Shown: piece by piece, positions 3,701 to 59,926 of the stretch
Numbering within the stretch: position 1 is the stretch's first letter
Layout of the letters: the number at the start of each line of letters is the position of its first letter
Source: Ischnura elegans
Taxonomy: Eukaryota; Arthropoda; Insecta; Odonata; Coenagrionidae
Length of the DNA stretch: 64,000 nt
Reading direction: 5' to 3'
Assembly (NCBI RefSeq): GCF_921293095.1
Contig: NC_060246.1
Location: 14,340,001-14,404,000 of the forward strand
Notes under the pieces: model-generated
Databases searched by the model: none
Told to the model about the DNA's origin: nothing
Seen by the model: only the letters and a program-made list of their open reading frames with translations
Program-made: the position numbers and the translations under genes

Positions 3701-4386
3701 TTTACGGAAGTTTTATTATAAGAGTGCGTGGGAGTTAAAATTTTCATTTTTCATATACTCTACCGGTGATTCTCATCTTTGAGTAAAATTATAAAGGTCT
3801 AAAATAAAATATAAATTTAATTAGGCCAGAAACTGCCACTAGGTACCCCAAGCAAACGAATTTTCAGATATAAATAAATACCAGTTGCTTAACTAAGCAA
3901 ATTTCGGAATAATAAGCCAATCAATGCTGTAACTGGGATAAAATACGTCATTTAAAATTGTTCCATAGTCGATGCAAACTGCAGGAATACGTTCAAGTTA
4001 GAAATGAGTCACCATCCAATAATCTGCATCACAAGAATTTTACATGTTGATGATACAAGATTTGCATGTTGGCACCGAAGGACGTCATAATTGAAAACGG
4101 TATTTTCAAAATAATATTTACGAGATGTACATGTAAGTACAGGAAAAGAAGGGAAACTATGGAGCGCCATATGCCAGAGAATGACTCACAGGTGCATTGA
4201 TGTCATAGAACATAGCAATTAAGGGAGGAATTTTCCGAGGAAATTTCCGAGGGAAAAACTGAAGGGGAATAATTCCCACGGCGAAGGAAGTACCTCGGGA
4301 AAGGGAGTATTGTACAGTATTCCAATCTTACGATTATAGAATCAGATATTTTTGCAATCTCATAGGCATAGGCGTAATCTGGTTAT

Positions 4387-17400: not shown

Positions 17401-17680
17401 TTGAGTTTCCTTCGACGCGAGAAACCATTCAAAGCCATTCGCCCGATCAACGCGAAATGTGGAAATCCGCATAAAATAAATGAGCAACTCCCCTGGTCAA
17501 TACTTTGGTCCGAAGGAAAGATTGCAATCGGGAACAAAATGTTGTGTTTCCTCCTGCTCCGCGAGGCATCCTCATTCATTGAGATTCCCCCGGTAGCTTT
17601 TTTTCATGAATTCGAAGGCAAAATGATGAAAGCCATGTAAACTAAGAAATATCTACTCTTCATTTCTTTGCGCATGCTAC

Positions 17681-17983
17681 CAGGGGCGCAGCCAGGAATT
17701 AAGGCTGAGGGGGGGGGTTTAGGTGCAACTAATACCAGGGTGTGTGGGGGTTTGGATTACCCACCAGGATAAGCGGTAGGTGCGAGATTAATAAATTGCG
17801 GAATTTTAAGATAAATGGTTCAAAATAGTGAGTTTTACGGCTTTCTGAGGGATATTTTATTAATCCTTACACTATTCTATTAGAAATATCAATCAAATTA
17901 AGTAAACTTGATTAAACTTAAGCATTTCTCTGAGCTCTGGGGGGGTTTTAGCCCCCAAAACCTCCCCCCTCGCTGCGCCACTG
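17681..17983 (+). mobile_element. hAT MITE, CAGGGGCGCAGCC family (303 bp)
   Basis: Perfect 8-bp duplication CATGCTAC at 17673-17680 and 17984-17991. Starts CAGGGGCGCAGCCAGGAATT and ends in CTCGCTGCGCCACTG, so the terminal repeats are CAGNGGCGCAGC. No ORF. Same family at 27348, 36664, 54666 (reverse) and 57709. Confidence 0.92.
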
Positions 17984-17991
17984 CATGCTAC

Positions 17992-27243: not shown

Positions 27244-27786
27244 AGGCCGTTTCACACGGGGCAGGTACTTGCACAATCTGACGTGTGTACGAAGGCGCAG
27301 TAAAAATTGCGTCGTGTAAAGCGGTGAATTGCTAGAACACATGCGAGCAGGGGCGCAGCCAGGAATTAAGGCGGGGGGGGGGGTTTAGATGCAACTAATA
27401 CTGAGGTGTTTGGGGGTGTGGAATACCCACCAGGATAAGCAGTAGGTGCGAGATTAATAAATTGCGGAATTTTAAGATAAATGGTTCAAAATGGTGAGTT
27501 TACCGCTTTCTGAGGGATATTTCATTAATCCTTACACTATTCTATTAGAAATATGAATTCAATTAAATAAAATGGATTAAACTTAAGCATTTCTCTGAGC
27601 TCTGGGGGGGGGTTTAACCCCCAAAACCCCCCCTCGCTGCGCCATTGCATGCGAGAATGCGTAGGCATGAGATGGCAAAATAGCCCCCGTTCTAATTCCG
27701 TTCATGCATTCGAATAATTCCACGCCATTTTTAGAAATTAATGCAGCTCTAACCTGCGCAATTCCGTGCCCCGTGTAAAACGACCT
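27244..27786. mobile_element. Harbinger-type MITE carrying a nested hAT MITE
   Basis: TTA at 27241-27243 and 27787-27789. Ends AGGCCGTTTCACACGGGGCA (left) and AGGTCGTTTTACACGGGGCA (right, reverse complement). The 3-bp TTA/TAA target is typical of PIF/Harbinger. Without the nested 300-bp hAT copy (27348-27647) and its duplicated 8 bp it would be about 235 bp. Confidence 0.68.
27348..27647 (+). mobile_element. hAT MITE, CAGGGGCGCAGCC family, nested (300 bp)
   Basis: Perfect 8-bp duplication CATGCGAG at 27340-27347 and 27648-27655. It begins CAGGGGCGCAGCCAGGAATT, ends GCTGCGCCATTG, and is closely similar to the 17681 copy throughout. It lies inside the Harbinger-type MITE, so it is the younger insertion. 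Confidence 0.92.
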
Positions 27787-33500: not shown

Positions 33501-33937
33501 CTCACTCACTCGAGGGCCCGTTGCGGAATACATATTTTGAATGGAAACCTCTGCCTATATAGCTTCCAGACACGACACGCCCCCACGGATTGGGCTTCTC
33601 TGCCCATAATGAGTCATTGGAACTGAACCAACTTTTAATTAAAGATGACTCTGTCCTTTGACACGCAAAAAATGGGAATGAAAATTTCCCTAAAATATTT
33701 TAATAAACAAAAAACTTAAACCACGCATTAATTGATGCACCAGTTCACCGCAACCAGCCAGTTGACATTGGAATGATTTTGTGCGCAATTGTTTATGTTG
33801 TGTGGTAGCGTTCTGTTTGTGTGAGCAGAAACTTATAACTAACAATTGAGTAAACTTGATTGTTTCTGGCTTTACTTTGTGAAAATCCATTCTTAATAAT
33901 AAAACGTTATTGTACTTTTCCACGCGATTTAATTAAT

Positions 33938-33974
33938 ACGACCGGTTTCGTCGCAGAGGCGACATCATCAGGTA
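33938..33974 (-). ncRNA. Hammerhead-type motif, left arm
   Basis: Minus strand: TAC, CTGATGA, T, GTCGC-CTCT-GCGAC, GAAACCGGTC, GTA. Helix II is a perfect 5 bp. ACCGGT at the helix III position is self-complementary and is followed by C, giving a GUC cleavage triplet. Helix I is 3 bp here. Confidence 0.6.
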
Positions 33975-33990
33975 ATGGATAACGGATTCT

Positions 33991-34030
33991 GTACCTGATG
34001 ATGTCGCCTCTGCGACGAAACCGGTCGTAT
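33991..34030 (+). ncRNA. Hammerhead-type motif, right arm
   Basis: Plus strand: GTAC, CTGATGA, T, GTCGC-CTCT-GCGAC, GAAACCGGTC, GTAT. Helix I is GTAC/GTAT (three pairs plus G-U), helix II a perfect 5 bp, and the cleavage triplet GUC. One extra U lies between the core and helix II, as in the other copies in this window. Confidence 0.62.
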
Positions 34031-34355
34031 TAATTAAATCGTGTGGAAAAGTACAATAACGTTTTATTATTAACAATTGAGTAAGTTAACAATATTTCGG
34101 ATTTATTACATTAAATAATAAATTTGGGTACATATAATAATAGGTATGTGTTACATTGAAATATGTGTTAAATTTACATTTTTACTATAATTTTATATCT
34201 CTTTTGTATTATTCATTTCTTTGAATAATAGTTTCTAATCAAATATTTATATATTTTTATTGTTATTAAGTATTATATATTTGTTATTGATACATTTTTA
34301 TTGTTATTTTTTTATTGTTTTAATTATTTTTTCATTTTTTCTACGAAACGGCTAA

Positions 34356-35873
34356 ACATGTCGCCGGGATGCGGCCGAACCCCTCCATCGTTCACCAGGC
34401 CCTGATGGCCTCAGTCCTATCTTTATACGTAACTGCGCCTCCTCCCTCGCGATTCCTATGAGTCTTCTGTTAAATCGCTGCTTCACGCTCGGTGTCTTTC
34501 CGCATCAGTGGAAAATGGCGAACATTATTCCAATCCATAAAACTGGTCCTAAATGTGAAGTCGCTAATTACCGCCCGAATACCTTACTTCCTAACCTATC
34601 CTCTGTCGCTGAGAGGATTATACTCAACAGATTACATTACTTTACATCCCCTAACCTCTCGAAAAATCAGCATGGTTCCCTTCCTAATCGTTCCTGTCTT
34701 ACTAACCTATCTGTATTCCATCACCATGCCGTCAACTCAATAGCAAAAAATTCTCAACTCGACGCCATATTCCTTGATTTCTCCAGAGCCTTCGATTCAC
34801 GTGACCATACCCTCCTCTTTCACAAGCTTAGTCAACGATTCAACGTGCATGGAACCTTTCTCAATCTCGTCAAATCCTTCCTTACTAATAGATTCCAAAG
34901 AGTTATATTTTCTGGCACCTCGTCCTACTGGTCCCCGGTAACATCAGGTGTTCCTCAAGGTAGTGTCCTGGGGCCATATTTATTTAGCCTATTCATTGAT
35001 GACCTAGCCACACTTTTGCCTCCATCCCAGACACGTACTCTTTTTTACGCGGACGATTGTAAGCTATTTAAGCAAATTCAAACTCCCTCGGACTGCAAAG
35101 TCCTTCAAAATTCTTTAAACCTGACTGCAAAATGGTGCAATACTTGGAACCTAAATTTAAATTTCAGTAAATGCAACTCCCTTTCGATTTCTCTTAAAAA
35201 AGCCCCCATTATTTTTCAATATTCAATTAATTCCGAGCCTCTTCCGCGTGTTTCGGCTGTGAAGGATTTAGGCGTCATTACTGACACCAAACTTAACTTC
35301 TCGGAACACATTCATTCAATCAAGAGCAAAGCCATGTCACTTTTAGGTCTCCTCTACCGCTACACAGAAATAGCCGATCCCACAGCTTTAAAATCATATT
35401 TCTCGGCATTTATCCTTCCAATCACCGGATATTGCTCTCCCATATGGTCCATCGCAGCCCCCTCTAACCTCACCTCTCTTGACAGTATAACAAGCTTCTT
35501 CGCCAGAACCGTAAGACGCAGAGTTCCCCACTTACGTGACATGTCCACCAGCTCACTCTTATCTTCCCTATTAATGACTGACCTCTCCCAACAAAGGATT
35601 AAAACAGACTTAAAACTTATTCACAATATTCTAAATTCACACATTGATTGTCCTGATTTGCTTTCATCCATTAATTTCAGAGTGCCTTGCCGACCCACTC
35701 GTACACATTCCTTACTCCATACGCCTATCCCTAGACTATCCCTCGTTAAGCGATCCCTCCAACACCGCCTTTGCTCCTTGCTCAATTCATTACCAGACAA
35801 TATTGACCCGTTTTTTCTGCCCTTAAACTCATTTATCAAACTTGCCATGTCCCATTCCTCAGCTAATAAATAA
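34356..35873 (+). CDS. 5'-truncated LINE reverse-transcriptase ORF, long open frame
   Basis: The frame is open from 34356; the first ATG is at 34458, but family similarity starts upstream with SPGPDGLSPIFIRNCASSLA, so the ATG is not the true start. Then MANIIPIHKTG, NYRPNTLL, AIFLDFSRAFDS (motif A; the usual catalytic Asp is present), GVPQGSVLGPYLFSLFIDDL, FYADD at about 35043-35057 (catalytic pair intact), and LGVITDTKLNF follow. The C-terminus ends in HRLCSLLNSLPDN and a TAA at 35871. This is the complete RT palm/thumb region of a jockey/CR1-type non-LTR retrotransposon. The endonuclease and the first ORF are missing through 5' truncation. There are no stops in 505 codons, so the insertion is fairly recent, but it lacks a promoter and endonuclease. 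Confidence 0.85.
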   Translation, partial: TCRRDAAEPLHRSPGPDGLSPIFIRNCASSLAIPMSLLLNRCFTLGVFPHQWKMANIIPIHKTGPKCEVANYRPNTLLPNLSSVAERIILNRLHYFTSPNLSKNQHGSLPNRSCLTNLSVFHHHAVNSIAKNSQLDAIFLDFSRAFDSRDHTLLFHKLSQRFNVHGTFLNLVKSFLTNRFQRVIFSGTSSYWSPVTSGVPQGSVLGPYLFSLFIDDLATLLPPSQTRTLFYADDCKLFKQIQTPSDCKVLQNSLNLTAKWCNTWNLNLNFSKCNSLSISLKKAPIIFQYSINSEPLPRVSAVKDLGVITDTKLNFSEHIHSIKSKAMSLLGLLYRYTEIADPTALKSYFSAFILPITGYCSPIWSIAAPSNLTSLDSITSFFARTVRRRVPHLRDMSTSSLLSSLLMTDLSQQRIKTDLKLIHNILNSHIDCPDLLSSINFRVPCRPTRTHSLLHTPIPRLSLVKRSLQHRLCSLLNSLPDNIDPFFLPLNSFIKLAMSHSSANK

Positions 35874-36663: not shown

Positions 36664-36974
36664 CAGGGTCGCAGCTAGGAATTAAGGTTAGAGGGGGTTT
36701 TAGGCAGAACAAATAGTGGGGAGTTTGGGGGTGTGGAATAGCCACCAGGGGAAGCGGGAGGTGCGGTGTCGGCCTCCCCTTGATGTGTTCAAATTGTTTC
36801 AAAAAATGTTTCAAAATAATAAGTTTTACGACCTTCTGAGGGATATTTTTATAATCCTTTCATTATTCTATAAGTAATATTAATCCAATCAAGTAAAATG
36901 GATTAAATTTAAAAATTTCTATGAGCTCTGGGGCGGTGTTTTATTCCCCAAAACCCCCCCTCGCTGCGCCACTG
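36664..36974 (+). mobile_element. hAT MITE, CAGGGGCGCAGCC family (311 bp)
   Basis: Perfect 8-bp duplication ACATGGAT at 36656-36663 and 36975-36982. Begins CAGGGTCGCAGCTAGGAATT and ends CTCGCTGCGCCACTG. It is more diverged in its middle than the 17681 and 27348 copies. Confidence 0.9.
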
Positions 36975-37256
36975 ACATGGATTGCATAATGTCAACAACA
37001 TTAGTTAACCGCATCATCCAAGGGAAGGGTGCACTAATTTCTTACATTCTCAGCGTGTTATCACGACTCAAAAAATTAGACAATATCACCGAGGTGCCTT
37101 CGATTGTTACCAGCACTTCGAAAGACGTATGAAGCCATTGACTATGAGAAAACGTAATAATCGAAATAACTCGTTAATATATTTGTCCAAGCCCCTGAGG
37201 GTACGGCCGATACCAACTCCGAATGTGACTTCATCGAAACCAGCCCCAGTGCAGAG

Positions 37257-37917
37257 AATATAGTAGTTTCCTTCATCAAAGAAGACGAAAGGCATTGATT
37301 GCGATTCGTTACCCACTATTAGTGCATCCATAATAAAAAAATTATTTAGTTTTAGAAATCCCAGTTTAGACGATGGACAATTTTAACCGCACTTGAAAAA
37401 GGCCAGATTTGCGCCCATGCGATGCCACTCCACGTGACGTCACGGAGACCTAGTTTCTATACGAGGAGATAGGAGTTTTACATCCTCTGAGATTACCAAT
37501 GCATGCATGAAGCACAGACTTCAAGGTAACATCTCTTAATAATCACCTATTAAAACTGCCTAAGGTCGGACAGTTTCCTTCGTTTGATAAGGTATTAATA
37601 ATCCTTATTTAAGCCACGCGCTACCTGCTAGCAGGGTACTCTGCTACCTGCTAGCATCCTGCGTCGTATCAGCGCTCAAAGCCTCGCCCCAAGGTCATCT
37701 TCCACGGCGACAGCGGGAATCAGAACGACGTCATATGGGGTTGTCCCAGCATCCATACTTCGCCGTCGCGTTTTCGCGCGCTTGAAATTTTTCACTTTTC
37801 ATTTAATCGCGAAAAAAAGATATCTCCATTAAAAAATCTAAAAGCGTGAAATTCGTATTCCAGGAGTACTTATCTTTCTATTTAGGCAATAAAAAAATAA
37901 TAGGAAACCACCCTTTT
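37257..37917 (+). mobile_element. AATAGGGTGGTTTCC-TIR family, near-complete copy (~661 bp)
   Basis: Left end AATATAGTAGTTTCC; right end GGAAACCACCCTTTT, the inverted form. It contains CCACGTGACGTCACGG, ATCTCTTAATAATCACC, GCGCTACCTGCTAGCAG twice and a CCAGGAGTA block shared with the copies at 26508, 42155 and 61779. Non-coding. No target duplication found. Confidence 0.72.
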
Positions 37918-42154: not shown

Positions 42155-42822
42155 AATAGGGTGGTTTCCTTCTTTTTTTATTGCCTAAATCGAAAGATTA
42201 TTACTCCTATAGTACGTATTTCACGATTTTAAATTTTTAAATGACAATGTCTATTTTTCGCGATTAATTCGAAATTGAAAATTTTCAAGAGCGCGAAAAC
42301 GCCACGGCTAAATATGAATGCTGGAAAAAGCCCGTGTGACGTCATTCTGGTTCCGGCTGCCGCCGTGTGAGGCCACCTTGATTCGAGGCTATGAGCGCCC
42401 TGAATGCAGGCTCCTAGCAGGCACAAGAGTATCCTGCTAGCAGGTAGCGCTTGGTTTGAATAAGGATTACTTATTATTACCCTATCAAACAAAGGAAACT
42501 CTCCGACCAAAGGCAATTTTAATGGGTGATTATTAAGAGATTTTTCCCTGAGCTCTGTGCCTCATGCAAACATTGGTAATCTCAGATGATGTAAAACTCC
42601 TACCTACTCGTTTAGAAACTAGGTTCCTGTGACGTCACGTGGAGTGGCATGGCATGGGCGCCAATCTGGCCTTTTTCAAATGAGGATAAAATTGACCATT
42701 AACATTCGTCTAAACTGGGATTCATAAAACCAAATAATTTGTACATTATGAATACACTAATTGTGGGTAACGAGTCGCATTCAATGTCTTTCGTTTTATT
42801 TGAGGAAGGAAACTACCATATT
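42155..42822 (-). mobile_element. AATAGGGTGGTTTCC-TIR family, complete copy (668 bp)
   Basis: Left end AATAGGGTGGTTTCC; right end in reverse complement AATATGGTAGTTTCC, so a 15-bp inverted terminus with two differences. Internal blocks match 37257-37917 in reverse order, including GTGACGTCACGTGGAGTGG. No target duplication was identified and no ORF is present. DNA transposon of unresolved superfamily. Confidence 0.78.
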
Positions 42823-43439
42823 CTTTTTTCCATTTTTTCTTACGTCCCCATTCCGCAACACCAATTCTGCCCCAAGAACACGTGTACGCTTACCTAGGAA
42901 CTGACGCCGACTGACTAACAGAAAATTACATTTATTCAGACGTTTAGTTATACGAAACTAACGATAAATTCAAACACATACCAAGAATTACTATCATATA
43001 ATCGCTTGAATATGACATACCATCGATACAAAATCTTCCGAAGTTAGAAAACAACGGCTAAAATTCACACAACTCTAGTTCACATGTTAACGCTCAGTCA
43101 ACTAAACTGACATGGCTGCAGAGGATGAGCATAACAGGTTATAACAGGTTTATCTATTTTGAATACTCTATGATAGTGGACAGAACTTCCTAGTCGTAAG
43201 AAAAACCCAAACCCCCTTCTGCCCCGGCCCCCGTTCTACCCTGTGTTCCACTATTATTTTAAAATACTTGGCGGTACTTTTTCCAAATGATTGAACTCGC
43301 TCAACGTCCACCTCTTCTGATAAATTGGATTCACCCAAAAAGGCCTTTTCTCACAATCTTACGTCTTATGAGGTAAGTACTGCCAAACAGGTATGATTCC
43401 TCGAAATCCATATTCACTGATAACGTTGTTTTTCAAACA
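42823..43439. other. No recognised feature
   Basis: AT-rich, no repeat boundary or coding motif seen. Confidence 0.35.
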
Positions 43440-44279: not shown

Positions 44280-46395
44280 TTTGGAATAACGAAGCACCTC
44301 ATTTCGGAAAACCAAAATAGCGCCTTTCGGGATACGCAGAAGTCCCAATCGCAATAATGTAATAGCGTCTTAGGAATATCGAAATACGGTCTTCGAAAAG
44401 CCGTAATGGCGTGTACGGAAACTCGAAAGGGCGTTTAGTGAATTCCGAAATAAGGCCTTTCTGAATTCGTACGGAACTCGGGTATTATGGAAAATGGCGT
44501 CTTCCGAAACTCCAAAAAAGCGTCTTTCGGCATTCCGGAATCCCGAAATGACATAATTAAGAGTACTGGTATTCAGAAAAATAGGGTGTTTCGGATTTCC
44601 AAAACATCGTCTGAGGGCGTCTTTCGGAATGGCGGAATCCCAAAACAAGGTTGTCCAGAATTCTGGAATTCAGAAGTATATTCTTGTTCGTTATACCAAA
44701 CCAGCGTCTACCATAATTCAGGTATGCAAAAGATAGCGTCTTTCGGAGTAAAAATTTGTCTTTCGAAAATACAGAATCACGAAACAGCGTCATTCAGAAT
44801 CATTATGGATTTCCGGTATTTAAAAAAGCGTCTTTAGAAATTAAAATAGCGTCATTTGAAACTAAATAGCGTCTTTTGCAATTCTGGAATTTCAAAATAG
44901 CGTTTTTTTTGCGATAAAAAGAGCGTCTTTCGGAATACAAATTAGTGTCTTAGAAGAAAAATAAAGCCTTTTGAATTTCTGTAATCCCGTCTTTTGGAAT
45001 AAAAATAGCATCTTTCGGAATAAAATAGCGTCTTTTGGAATTCTGGATTTCCAAATAACCGTAAAAATAGCGTCATTAGGAATAAAATAGCGTCTTTCGG
45101 AATACACAAGGCGTCTTTTGGAATTATGTAATTACAAAACCGTAAAAATAGCGCCTTTCGGAATAAAATAGCATCTTTCGGAATAAAATAGCGTCTTTTG
45201 GAATAAAAATAGCGTCATTCGGAATAAAATAACGTCTTTTGGAATTCTTGAATTACAAAATAGGGTCTTTTGCGATAAAAATAGCGTCTATCGGAATAAA
45301 AATAGCGTCGTTTGGAATAAAATAGCGTCTTTTGGAATTCTAGAATTACAATATAGCGTCTTTTGGGATAAAAATAGCTTCTTTTTGGATTAAAAAAATA
45401 GCGTCATTCGGAATACAAATAGCGTCATTCGGAATGAAATAGCGTCTTTTGGAATTCTGTAATTACATAATACCGTAAAAATAGCGTCTTTCAGAATAAC
45501 ATAGCGTCTTTCGGAATAAAAATAGCGTCGTTCGTAATAGAATAGCGTCTTTTGGAATTCTAGAATTACAATATAGCGTCTTTTGGGATAAAAATAGCTT
45601 CTTTTTGGATTAAAAAAATAGCGTCATTCGGAATACAAATAGCGTCATTCGGAATGAAATAGCGTCTTTTGGAATTCTGTAATTACATAATACCGTAAAA
45701 ATAGCGTCTTTCAGAATAACATAGCGTCTTTCGGAATAAAAATAGCGTCGTTCGTAATAGAATAGCGTCTTTTGGAATTCTGGAATTACAAAATAGCGTC
45801 TTTTGCGATAAAAATAGCGTCTTTTGGGATAAAATAGCGTCTTTCAGAATAAAATAGCGTCTATCGGAATAAAAATAGCGTCATTCGGAGTAGAATAGCG
45901 TCTTTTGGAATTCTGGAATTACAAAATAGCGTCTTTGCGATATAAATAGTGTCTTTCGGAATAAAAATAGCGTCTTTCGGAATTAAATAGCGTCTATCTG
46001 AATAAAAATAGCGTCATTCGGAGTAGAATAGCGTCTTTTGGAATTCTAGAATTACATAATACCGTAAAAATAGCGCCTTTCGGAATAAAATAGCGTCTTT
46101 CGGAATGAATAGCGTTTTTTGGAATAAAATAGCGCCTTTTGGAATAAAAATAGCGTCACTCGGAATAAAATAGCGTCTTTTGGAATTCTGTTATTGCAAA
46201 ATACCTTTAAAATGGCGCCTTTCGGTATAAAATAGCATCTTTCGGAATAAAAATAGCGTTCTTCGGATTAGAATAGCGCATTTTGGTATAAAATAGCGTA
46301 TTTAGGAATGAATAGCTTCTTTAGGAAAAAATTGCGCCAATCGGAATACAACAGCGTATTTTGGAATTCTGGGATTACAAAATAGCGTGCCTTAG
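44280..46395 (+). repeat. 2.1-kb minisatellite, ~20-bp unit AAAATAGCGTCTTTCGGAAT
   Basis: The unit (A)nTAGCGTC(T/A)TT(C/T)GGAATA repeats roughly a hundred times. The left part (44280-44850) is highly diverged; from about 44850 the units are regular. A longer higher-order form inserts TTCTGGAATTACA after some units, so units alternate in blocks. Frames read through it on both strands are not genes. There is no spacer variability as in CRISPR: unit and spacer do not separate. Confidence 0.92.
45321..45760 (+). repeat. Perfect 220-bp tandem duplication inside the minisatellite
   Basis: 45321-45540 and 45541-45760 are identical at all 220 positions by eye, including private variants such as TTTTTGGATTAAAAAAATAG and TTCGTAATAG. 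The next unit departs at its 22nd base (TGGAATT for TAGAATT). Recent unequal exchange or an assembly duplication are both possible. Confidence 0.9.
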
Positions 46396-54665: not shown

Positions 54666-54955
54666 CAGTGGTGCAGCAAGCCACTGCTGGAGGGGGTTAA
54701 ACTCCCCCTGGAGCTCAGATAAACTTTTGATTTTAATCCATTTTATTTCATTTGATTAATATACTTACAGAAGAGTCTAAGGATTAATTTAAAAAATCCC
54801 ACAGAAAGCCATAAAACTCAACATTTTGAACCATTTATCTTAAAAAACTTCTGGGGGAGGGCCCCCACACCTGCTTATCCTGGCGGGTACACTACACACC
54901 CCAGGTCAAGTTGCGCCTAAAACCCCCATAGCCTTAATTCCTAGCTGCGCCCCTT
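54666..54955 (-). mobile_element. hAT MITE, CAGGGGCGCAGCC family (minus)
   Basis: Starts CAGTGGTGCAGCAAGCC and ends CTTAATTCCTAGCTGCGCCC, the reverse complement of the family's CAGGGGCGCAGCTAGGAATT end. Internal sequence matches the other copies in reverse. The flanks give only a partial duplication. Confidence 0.78.
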
Positions 54956-57708: not shown

Positions 57709-58025
57709 CAGGGGCGCAGCTAGGAATTGAGGCTGGGGGGGGGGGGGGGGGGGGTTAGGTGCAACTAATACCGGGGTGTGCGGAGGTATGGAATACCCAC
57801 CAGGATAAGCGGTAGGTGCGAGATTAATAAATTGCGCAAAATTTAAGATAAATGGTTCAAAATGGTGAGTTTTACGGCTTTCTGAGGGATATTTTATTAA
57901 TCCTTACACTATTCTATTAGTAATATCAATCCAATTAAGTAAAATGGATTAAACTAAAAAATTTCTCTGAGCCCTGGGGGGGGGGTGGTTTTAACCCCCA
58001 AAACCTCCCCCTCGCTGTGCCACTG
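57709..58025 (+). mobile_element. hAT MITE, CAGGGGCGCAGCC family (317 bp)
   Basis: Flanks TCCATGGT (57701-57708) and GTCATGGT (58026-58033) match at 6 of 8. Begins CAGGGGCGCAGCTAGGAATT, has an 18-G run, and ends CTCGCTGTGCCACTG. Confidence 0.85.
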
Positions 58026-58304
58026 GTCATGGTACTACATCATTTTTGTTTGTGTAGCTTAACATTTGCTAAATGGGGTCTATGAACGTTAGCGTTGAAT
58101 ATGTGTTTAATTTTCTTCCATCTGTATTCAAGTGTAATAATGTTTTTTTTGCATCATGATGTCATGTGATTATTTTCTAATGCTCTGCACCACAAGAAAT
58201 TAGTTAAGATGTAAGAATTGATTATGAATTGCAACACCTGTTTATCCTGACAGAAATACATAAAAATTCCATCTTCAGGACGACAGCTGCTCACAACAAC
58301 AATG

Positions 58305-59835: not shown

Positions 59836-59926
59836 CCTTCGGTAGCTCAGTTGGTAGAGCGGTGGACTGTAGAAGGAATCGAATATAGATATCCATAGGT
59901 CGCTGGTTCAAATCCGGCCCGAAGGA
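59836..59926 (+). tRNA. tRNA-Tyr(GTA) with 18-nt intron
   Basis: Acceptor stem CCTTCGG/CCGAAGG is a perfect 7 bp with discriminator A. The D arm is GCTC-AGTTGGTA-GAGC; the anticodon arm GTGGA-CTGTAGA-TCCAT has anticodon GTA at 59869-59871. The T arm GCTGG-TTCAAAT-CCGGC is perfect. The intron (59873-59890) lies after position 37, the canonical place; eukaryotic nuclear tRNA-Tyr genes nearly always have one. A box TAGCTCAGTTGG and B box GGTTCAAATCC are intact. It should be transcribed by RNA polymerase III. All helices are intact, so this is probably a functional gene. Confidence 0.95.

Follow-up and report, generated by a model that had tools for sequence, protein, structure and literature searches.

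We propose that the 218-bp palindrome at 33854-34071 of the window (the whole 64-kb stretch of DNA analysed here, C1:14340001-14404000 of a 1.72-Gb host genome in 110 contigs) is a stub insertion of a Penelope-like element, very probably made by two-sided target-primed reverse transcription in which each DNA end would use one RNA start site of its own and the two cDNAs would then be joined. Judged from its sequence, it combines the 5' pLTR of a Penelope-like element with the start of that element's ORF, and an autonomous copy of the element is present in the same genome. Young copies with intact target-site duplications (TSDs), sharp ends and individual junctions are a record of single integration events, and they bear on how Penelope-like elements integrate and on why they have inverted pLTRs and a one-sided tail. 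The evidence points to an ordered two-sided RT start, and we know of no other retrotransposon that uses one RNA start site per DNA end as a rule.

The insert is a near-perfect inverted repeat with one hammerhead motif per arm. It is bounded on both sides by AACAATTGAGTAA (13 bp, 14 with a shared T), confirming the palindrome with two opposed hammerhead cores and a 13-bp flanking duplication that a sequence-only reading of this DNA had described. The left TSD lies at 33841-33853 (14 bp counting the preceding shared T) and its sequence repeat, the right TSD, at 34072-34084. The palindrome arms (33886-33974 and 33992-34080) are 89 nt long, 97% complementary and 17 nt apart; inside the element they differ at one base (CGCG versus CGTG), and are thus as near-identical as had been claimed. 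The element is asymmetric, with about 43 bp at the left (33851-33893) outside the palindrome, and the order from left to right is 43-bp stretch, antisense arm, 17-nt centre and sense arm. The 43-bp stretch is the Penelope "tail" on the minus strand and corresponds to the first 13 codons of the autonomous ORF. It reads AGA, then ATG-GAT-TTT-CAC-AAA-GTA-AAG-CCA-GAA-ACA-ATC-AAG-TTT; its three outermost bases overlap the TSD, and RT start site 2 is at its outer end. The 831-aa ORF of the autonomous copy, L087, begins with the same 13 residues, MDFHKVKPETIKF. The pLTR part of the left arm (33894-33974, minus strand, antisense) starts at site 1 and stops 3 nt upstream of the hammerhead, and that of the right arm (33992-34073, plus strand, sense) ends tail-less at RT start site 1, its final 2-3 bases overlapping the TSD. 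Between them, the copy-specific arm junction (33975-33991) is composed of 4 nt of filler and the further-reaching part of the right arm, which begins at about 33979.

The hammerhead core, CTGATGA-T-GTCGC-CTCT-GCGAC-GAAACCGGTC, is found in the left arm on the minus strand (33971 down to 33940), with the predicted cut between 33940 and 33939, and in the right arm on the plus strand (33995-34026), with the predicted cut after 34026; each arm has CTGATGA, a 5-bp helix II with the loop CTCT, and GAAACCGGTC. At zero mismatches these two sites are the only ones within the 64 kb, and at up to one mismatch there are 3 matches versus 0.45 expected. The core would be a minimal type I hammerhead whose helix III would be a self-complementary, loop-less ACCGGU, and both core and ACCGGU are present in the two window arms and in L087. 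Minimal hammerheads of Penelope-like elements are described in excerpts of PMC6155905 as a type I core without a proper helix III, and against that description the window motif is of the same type, with nothing distinctive beyond its sequence. Rfam returned no hammerhead match in the window at the gathering score and still no hammerhead model at E<=10, where the 11 matches (miRNA, cis-regulatory and sRNA models, all below their gathering scores) are taken as hairpin artefacts. Folding of single arms did not favour the hammerhead fold (z 0.19 and -0.98), and co-folding of the two arms gave differing structures across the three versions tried. For a transcript of the palindrome the predicted fold is a hairpin of -148.6 kcal/mol, in line with the one long hairpin suggested earlier. 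In the window copy the hammerhead is passenger sequence. Both window arms extend past the predicted cut, so their templates would have been uncut there, and all measured arms in both copy sets pass it as well.

The autonomous partner was reached with a 148-base natural probe from copy L037, in which the upstream part, hammerhead, arm and tail are contiguous. Among 1400 candidates, 40 were scored, namely the query at 100% and 39 others at 99% over 148 bases. Eighteen of the 40 places were fetched and all 18 carry the tail; in 17 it is followed by unrelated (non-ORF) flank, and in L081 the reading frame continues. The 8 kb around L081 on contig C7 (L087) contain the intact 831-aa ORF, which matches RVT_1 in Pfam (1.8e-12, aa 347-538) and, below the cutoff of 22.6 bits, GIY-YIG (PF01541, E 0.0045, 17.7 bits, aa 707-746); GIY...YIGQTGRSF is visible in the translation. 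Six PDB matches (8e-4 to 6e-3) are reverse transcriptases including telomerase (E 0.002). Two sense pLTRs bearing the same hammerhead flank the ORF; at the left lies an antisense arm beginning with the tail, at the right the tail-less end of the sense arm, and the TSD is 12 bp, AGGGTCTACTCT. Over 2442 bp the antisense arm is 100% identical to the inverted sense part, ORF bases at about 4098-4232 are confined to the sense arm, and of the two arms just the antisense one ends in the tail. The window copy matches L087 at 99.2% over tail and left arm (124 bp) and at 100% over the right arm (95 bp), and this match together with the same layout identifies the window feature as the L087 architecture at stub length. 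Its assignment to the Penelope-like elements is based on the telomerase-like RT of the partner, the pLTRs and tail in tandem/inverted layout, the variable TSD and the minimal hammerhead. Of the other 17 fetched places, four were read upstream: L089, L090 and L091 are likewise head-to-head with a tail-less arm ending at site 1, and L088 consists of one 5'-truncated arm and has a 12-bp TSD. Head-to-head joins are also present in L079, L083 and L075.

Within the window itself, an ORF at 34458-35870 (+; open frame 34356-35870) lies about 370 bp to the right of the palindrome and encodes 471 aa with an RVT_1 match (3.2e-29). Judged by eye to be LINE-type, it was rejected as the partner because the pLTR in L087 is joined to a different ORF; nor was an obvious partner seen, again by eye, among the ORFs in 200 kb of window flanks. 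Several other repeats occur in this region. At 44988-46367, units of ~20 bp (AAAATAGCGTCTTTCGGAAT) are repeated in tandem and form higher-order periods of up to 220 bp. Dispersed repeats of ~300 bp, ~77-91% alike and in both orientations, are located at 17673-17988, 27340-27652, 36804-36980, 54704-54844 and 57745-58038, and members of this family also lie near copies L004 and L005. A ~660-bp repeat family is represented at 37255-37917 and 42155-42824 of the window and at L007:1729-2397, the L007 palindrome sitting at the edge of such a repeat. Beside the young copy in L073, a 72%-identical inverted relic (L073:384-482) looks like an older pLTR family. At 59836-59926 (+) Rfam matches a tRNA at 61.2 bits, with extra sequence inserted near the anticodon; ARAGORN, with the settings used, found no tRNA.

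The unit is multi-copy. A 246-base window probe searched against its own genome gave 1120 first-look candidates, of which 40 dispersed places were scored and fetched; since 40 were scored per search (of 1120, 1400 and 702 first-look candidates), the copies counted here are a minimum. All 40 retain the whole left tail or the greater part of it, and 39 likewise the right arm end; in L044 the right end is gone, and a TSD was not detected. A flanking duplication (score of at least 9) was detected in 36 of the 40 copies versus 1 of 400 swapped-flank controls, with lengths of 10-17 bp, mostly 12-14 and most commonly 12. The 12 short pairs fetched with a tail-free probe (see below) are each flanked by a perfect TSD of 10-15 bp, and in 8 of the pairs it is exactly 12 bp. 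Two sister copies, L034 and L035, are inserted in other repeats, and paralogues of these repeats that lack the insert have a single copy of the target; spanning paralogues also match L033 and L018, less cleanly. The sequence-only reading had taken the unit for a tiny, recently inserted sequence with hammerheads, and this, with the flanking duplication as a true TSD, is supported. In the 36 first-set copies (G/C)TT is frequent just past the cut on each strand, which is what cutting of the two strands by one active site should give; the cut position was set by the longest possible duplication, and the preference is a descriptive count. Perfect inverted repeats can arise from hairpin reads, and L087 does have a 2442-bp, 100% inverted copy. 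An assembly fold-back artefact is nonetheless scarcely credible given copy-specific TSDs in 36 of 40 and 12 of 12 copies, asymmetric ends, filler at the junctions and paralogous empty sites.

Since the earlier probes contained the tail, the genome was searched again with 81 tail-free bases of the arm. Forty of 702 candidates were scored, giving 53 matches, all on C1 and C2, that group into 36 loci: 17 inverted pairs and 19 single arms. The 17 pairs are copies with a 100%-identical arm on C1 and C2 and thus represent the youngest copies. All 17 are head-to-head, and no direct neighbours lie within 5 kb among the 36 loci, in agreement with the view that the unit is inverted rather than tandem. 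That the inverted form is the rule held in part: it is common, with 17 of the 36 loci paired, but 19 of 36 show a single arm within 5 kb. Exactly one end is tailed and one tail-less in 17 of 17 pairs (13 newly fetched and 4 fetched previously), including the pair L104/L105, which is 3.0 kb apart and was scored from its two ends. If each end were chosen independently, the chance of 17 out of 17 would be about 2e-6 to 8e-6. The 19 single arms comprise 12 tailed ends (including L086) and 7 tail-less ones, the tailed count being 11 if L114 and L117, which share the same flank, are one duplicated locus, as they probably are. In L088 and L086 one arm stands by itself between flanking repeats. Either one-sided insertion also occurs, or in the single arms the partner has been lost or is without the probe region. 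Inverted pLTRs, tail and hammerheads are already on record for Penelope-like elements in the excerpted literature (PMC3846280, PMC6155905); what is new, and open to test, is the strict rule of one tail per pair.

The junctions, measured as the reach of each arm past the hammerhead, are distinct in 40 of 40 copies and in 12 of 12 copies of the second set, where L096 is without one value and so partly measured. Because all 40 differ, the palindrome must be made anew at each insertion and not inherited. Counted from the first core base, inner arm ends lie between +22 and -44 (40 copies; a spread of ~65 nt), outer ends agree to a few bases in most copies, and some junctions have 1-15 nt of overlap while others contain up to 34 nt of filler. 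This pattern fits two reverse transcripts that begin at set points, the outer ends, and finish unevenly in the centre; a transcription start, an RT stop or a preference in joining may set where the inner ends fall. As an alternative, a non-autonomous element of the retrozyme, SINE or MITE kind that propagates itself, being transcribed and moved already in palindromic form, would account for many similar-sized copies with TSDs and for hammerheads like those of retrozymes. It is very unlikely in view of the junctions, by which no scored copy descends from another as a palindrome, of the missing direct neighbours among the 36 loci, and of arms that match the pLTR of the autonomous element at 99-100% with an outer end that is the ORF start. 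The earlier likening to retrozymes is thus not upheld: the unit derives from a Penelope-like pLTR and ORF start, and there are no tandem direct repeats at the 36 loci.

Of the 40 copies, 32 have the tail-less arm extending deeper into the centre and 8 the tailed arm, L021 being ambiguous in this count as its overlap exceeds the arm-length difference; among 11 measured copies of the second set, the tail-less arm is longer in 7, the tailed arm in 3, and one is equal. In the 32 and the 7 copies each arm holds sequence that the other lacks, so that neither is a simple snap-back copy of the other. Snap-back or self-priming, in which one cDNA (or antisense RNA) folds back and copies its own arm, had been suggested by the sequence-only reading and is proposed for head-to-head Penelope palindromes of Adineta vaga in excerpts of PMC3846280. 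Many junctions with overlap or filler would suit such a process, as would source variants common to both arms, and the copies with a longer tailed arm (8/40 and 3/11) are what a tailed strand folding back should yield. The simple version fails for the 32 copies with private sequence in each arm and is compatible with the other 8. It is also at odds with the one-sided tail of 17/17 pairs, with L087, where the ORF bases at about 4098-4232 are exclusive to the sense arm and the tailed end to the antisense arm, and with a second arm that stops at a fixed internal site and not at the end of the supposed template. We consider snap-back quite unlikely, and two-sided priming remains the preferred reading.

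The source variants were followed across the arms. Subfamily substitutions (L036, L040, L041, L043, L045 and L047) are on both arms, and most single-copy changes are on one. There are 36 mirrored cells, 37 left-only and 39 right-only, versus a permutation mean of 5.4 and maximum of 22 (1000 permutations). In the other 34 copies, 2 mirrored cells versus 0.26 expected (permutation maximum 3) are only suggestive. At the subfamily base, L021 has CGGTTTCTG (T) in the left arm and CGGATTCTG (A) in the right, a mismatch that two templates or one later mutation may explain equally well.

The architecture, the partner element, the end usage, the independent junctions and the TSDs are direct observations, and on them we base the following scheme. 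The element protein would cut both target strands about 12 bp apart, and each exposed DNA 3' end would prime reverse transcription on element RNA at either of two adjacent internal sites: site 1 immediately ahead of the start codon of the ORF, or site 2 a further 43 nt on, at codon 13-14. The two antisense cDNAs would run past the hammerhead cut, mostly to slightly upstream of the hammerhead, and be joined end to end, with gap filling producing the ~12-bp target duplication. The outcome would be a head-to-head palindrome with the tail at exactly one end, and a longer template RNA could give, by the same reaction, long copies including the full element L087. We infer the order of these steps and the template molecules used, and the cuts would be made by the weakly matched GIY-YIG domain. 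That copying starts inside the beginning of the ORF suggests an origin for the ORF-less stubs, as an RNA with no further pLTR downstream could give rise to no more than an insert of pLTR size.

A loop-less helix III is usually read as forcing minimal hammerheads to act as dimers. On this basis we offer, as a speculative and rather unlikely extension, that the self-complementary helix III pairs two element RNAs and that a dimeric Penelope protein carries them as two templates, one used at site 1 and the other at site 2. If true, this would account for exactly one tailed end per scored pair, and the hammerhead would serve to pair templates, either in place of cleaving or in addition to it. L021 would then be a two-template insertion, a later mutation fitting equally.

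In LINE-1 twin priming, both DNA ends prime on the element RNA to give an inverted insert. That form is occasional and has ill-defined positions, whereas the present form is common and has two fixed start sites. Metazoan retrozymes with type I hammerheads are tandem, have canonical hammerheads and form circular RNA, according to excerpts of PMC7229834. Like them, the present family consists of short hammerhead-bearing repeats, and some retrozyme TSDs exceed 4 bp (PMC7229834, same excerpts); unlike them, its arms are head-to-head and derive from a protein-coding element.

Further parallels are found among Penelope-like elements. PAc, the Poseidon element of Anolis carolinensis, has an RT/endonuclease protein and a pLTR hammerhead; the protein cuts and extends both strands, two adjacent RNA start sites bound the tail, and the main template is uncut RNA (Frangieh et al., PMC11167929, in excerpt). 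The present family resembles PAc in its pLTR hammerhead and in two adjacent internal start sites defining the tail, and from predicted hammerhead cut to site 2 it measures ~90 nt versus the 85-92 nt computed from the excerpts for PAc. The PAc ORF starts inside the hammerhead, whereas the present family has its start codon 51 nt downstream of the predicted cut, and PAc is known from in vitro work, the present family from sequence. In the PAc assay the two strands do not differ in start site (PMC11167929), so the one-of-each rule is not predicted by it; the strict pairing may need conditions absent there, or may be particular to the present family. The excerpts of PMC11167929 contain no inverted end pairs or one-tail-per-pair rule for PAc, and those of PMC12910113, also from the open-access literature, nothing on inverted Penelope ends.

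The elements of A. vaga are a second parallel. Excerpts of Arkhipova (PMC3846280) describe Pen2a_Av and others with direct and inverted pLTRs, 8-10-bp TSDs and head-to-head junctions, a 31-bp tail in the ORF start that is optionally on one inverted pLTR, and a few inserts of foreign sequence between solo pLTRs. The two families are alike in direct and inverted pLTRs, in a one-sided tail within the ORF start and in head-to-head joins. They differ in tail length (43 versus 31 bp) and TSD length (mostly 12-14 versus 8-10 bp), and in the hammerhead that the present family has in addition. Mainly ORF-bearing copies are described there from A. vaga, to which the present family adds many ORF-less short palindromes. 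For the inverted pLTRs that paper favours self-priming, whereas the counts in the present family favour two-sided priming.
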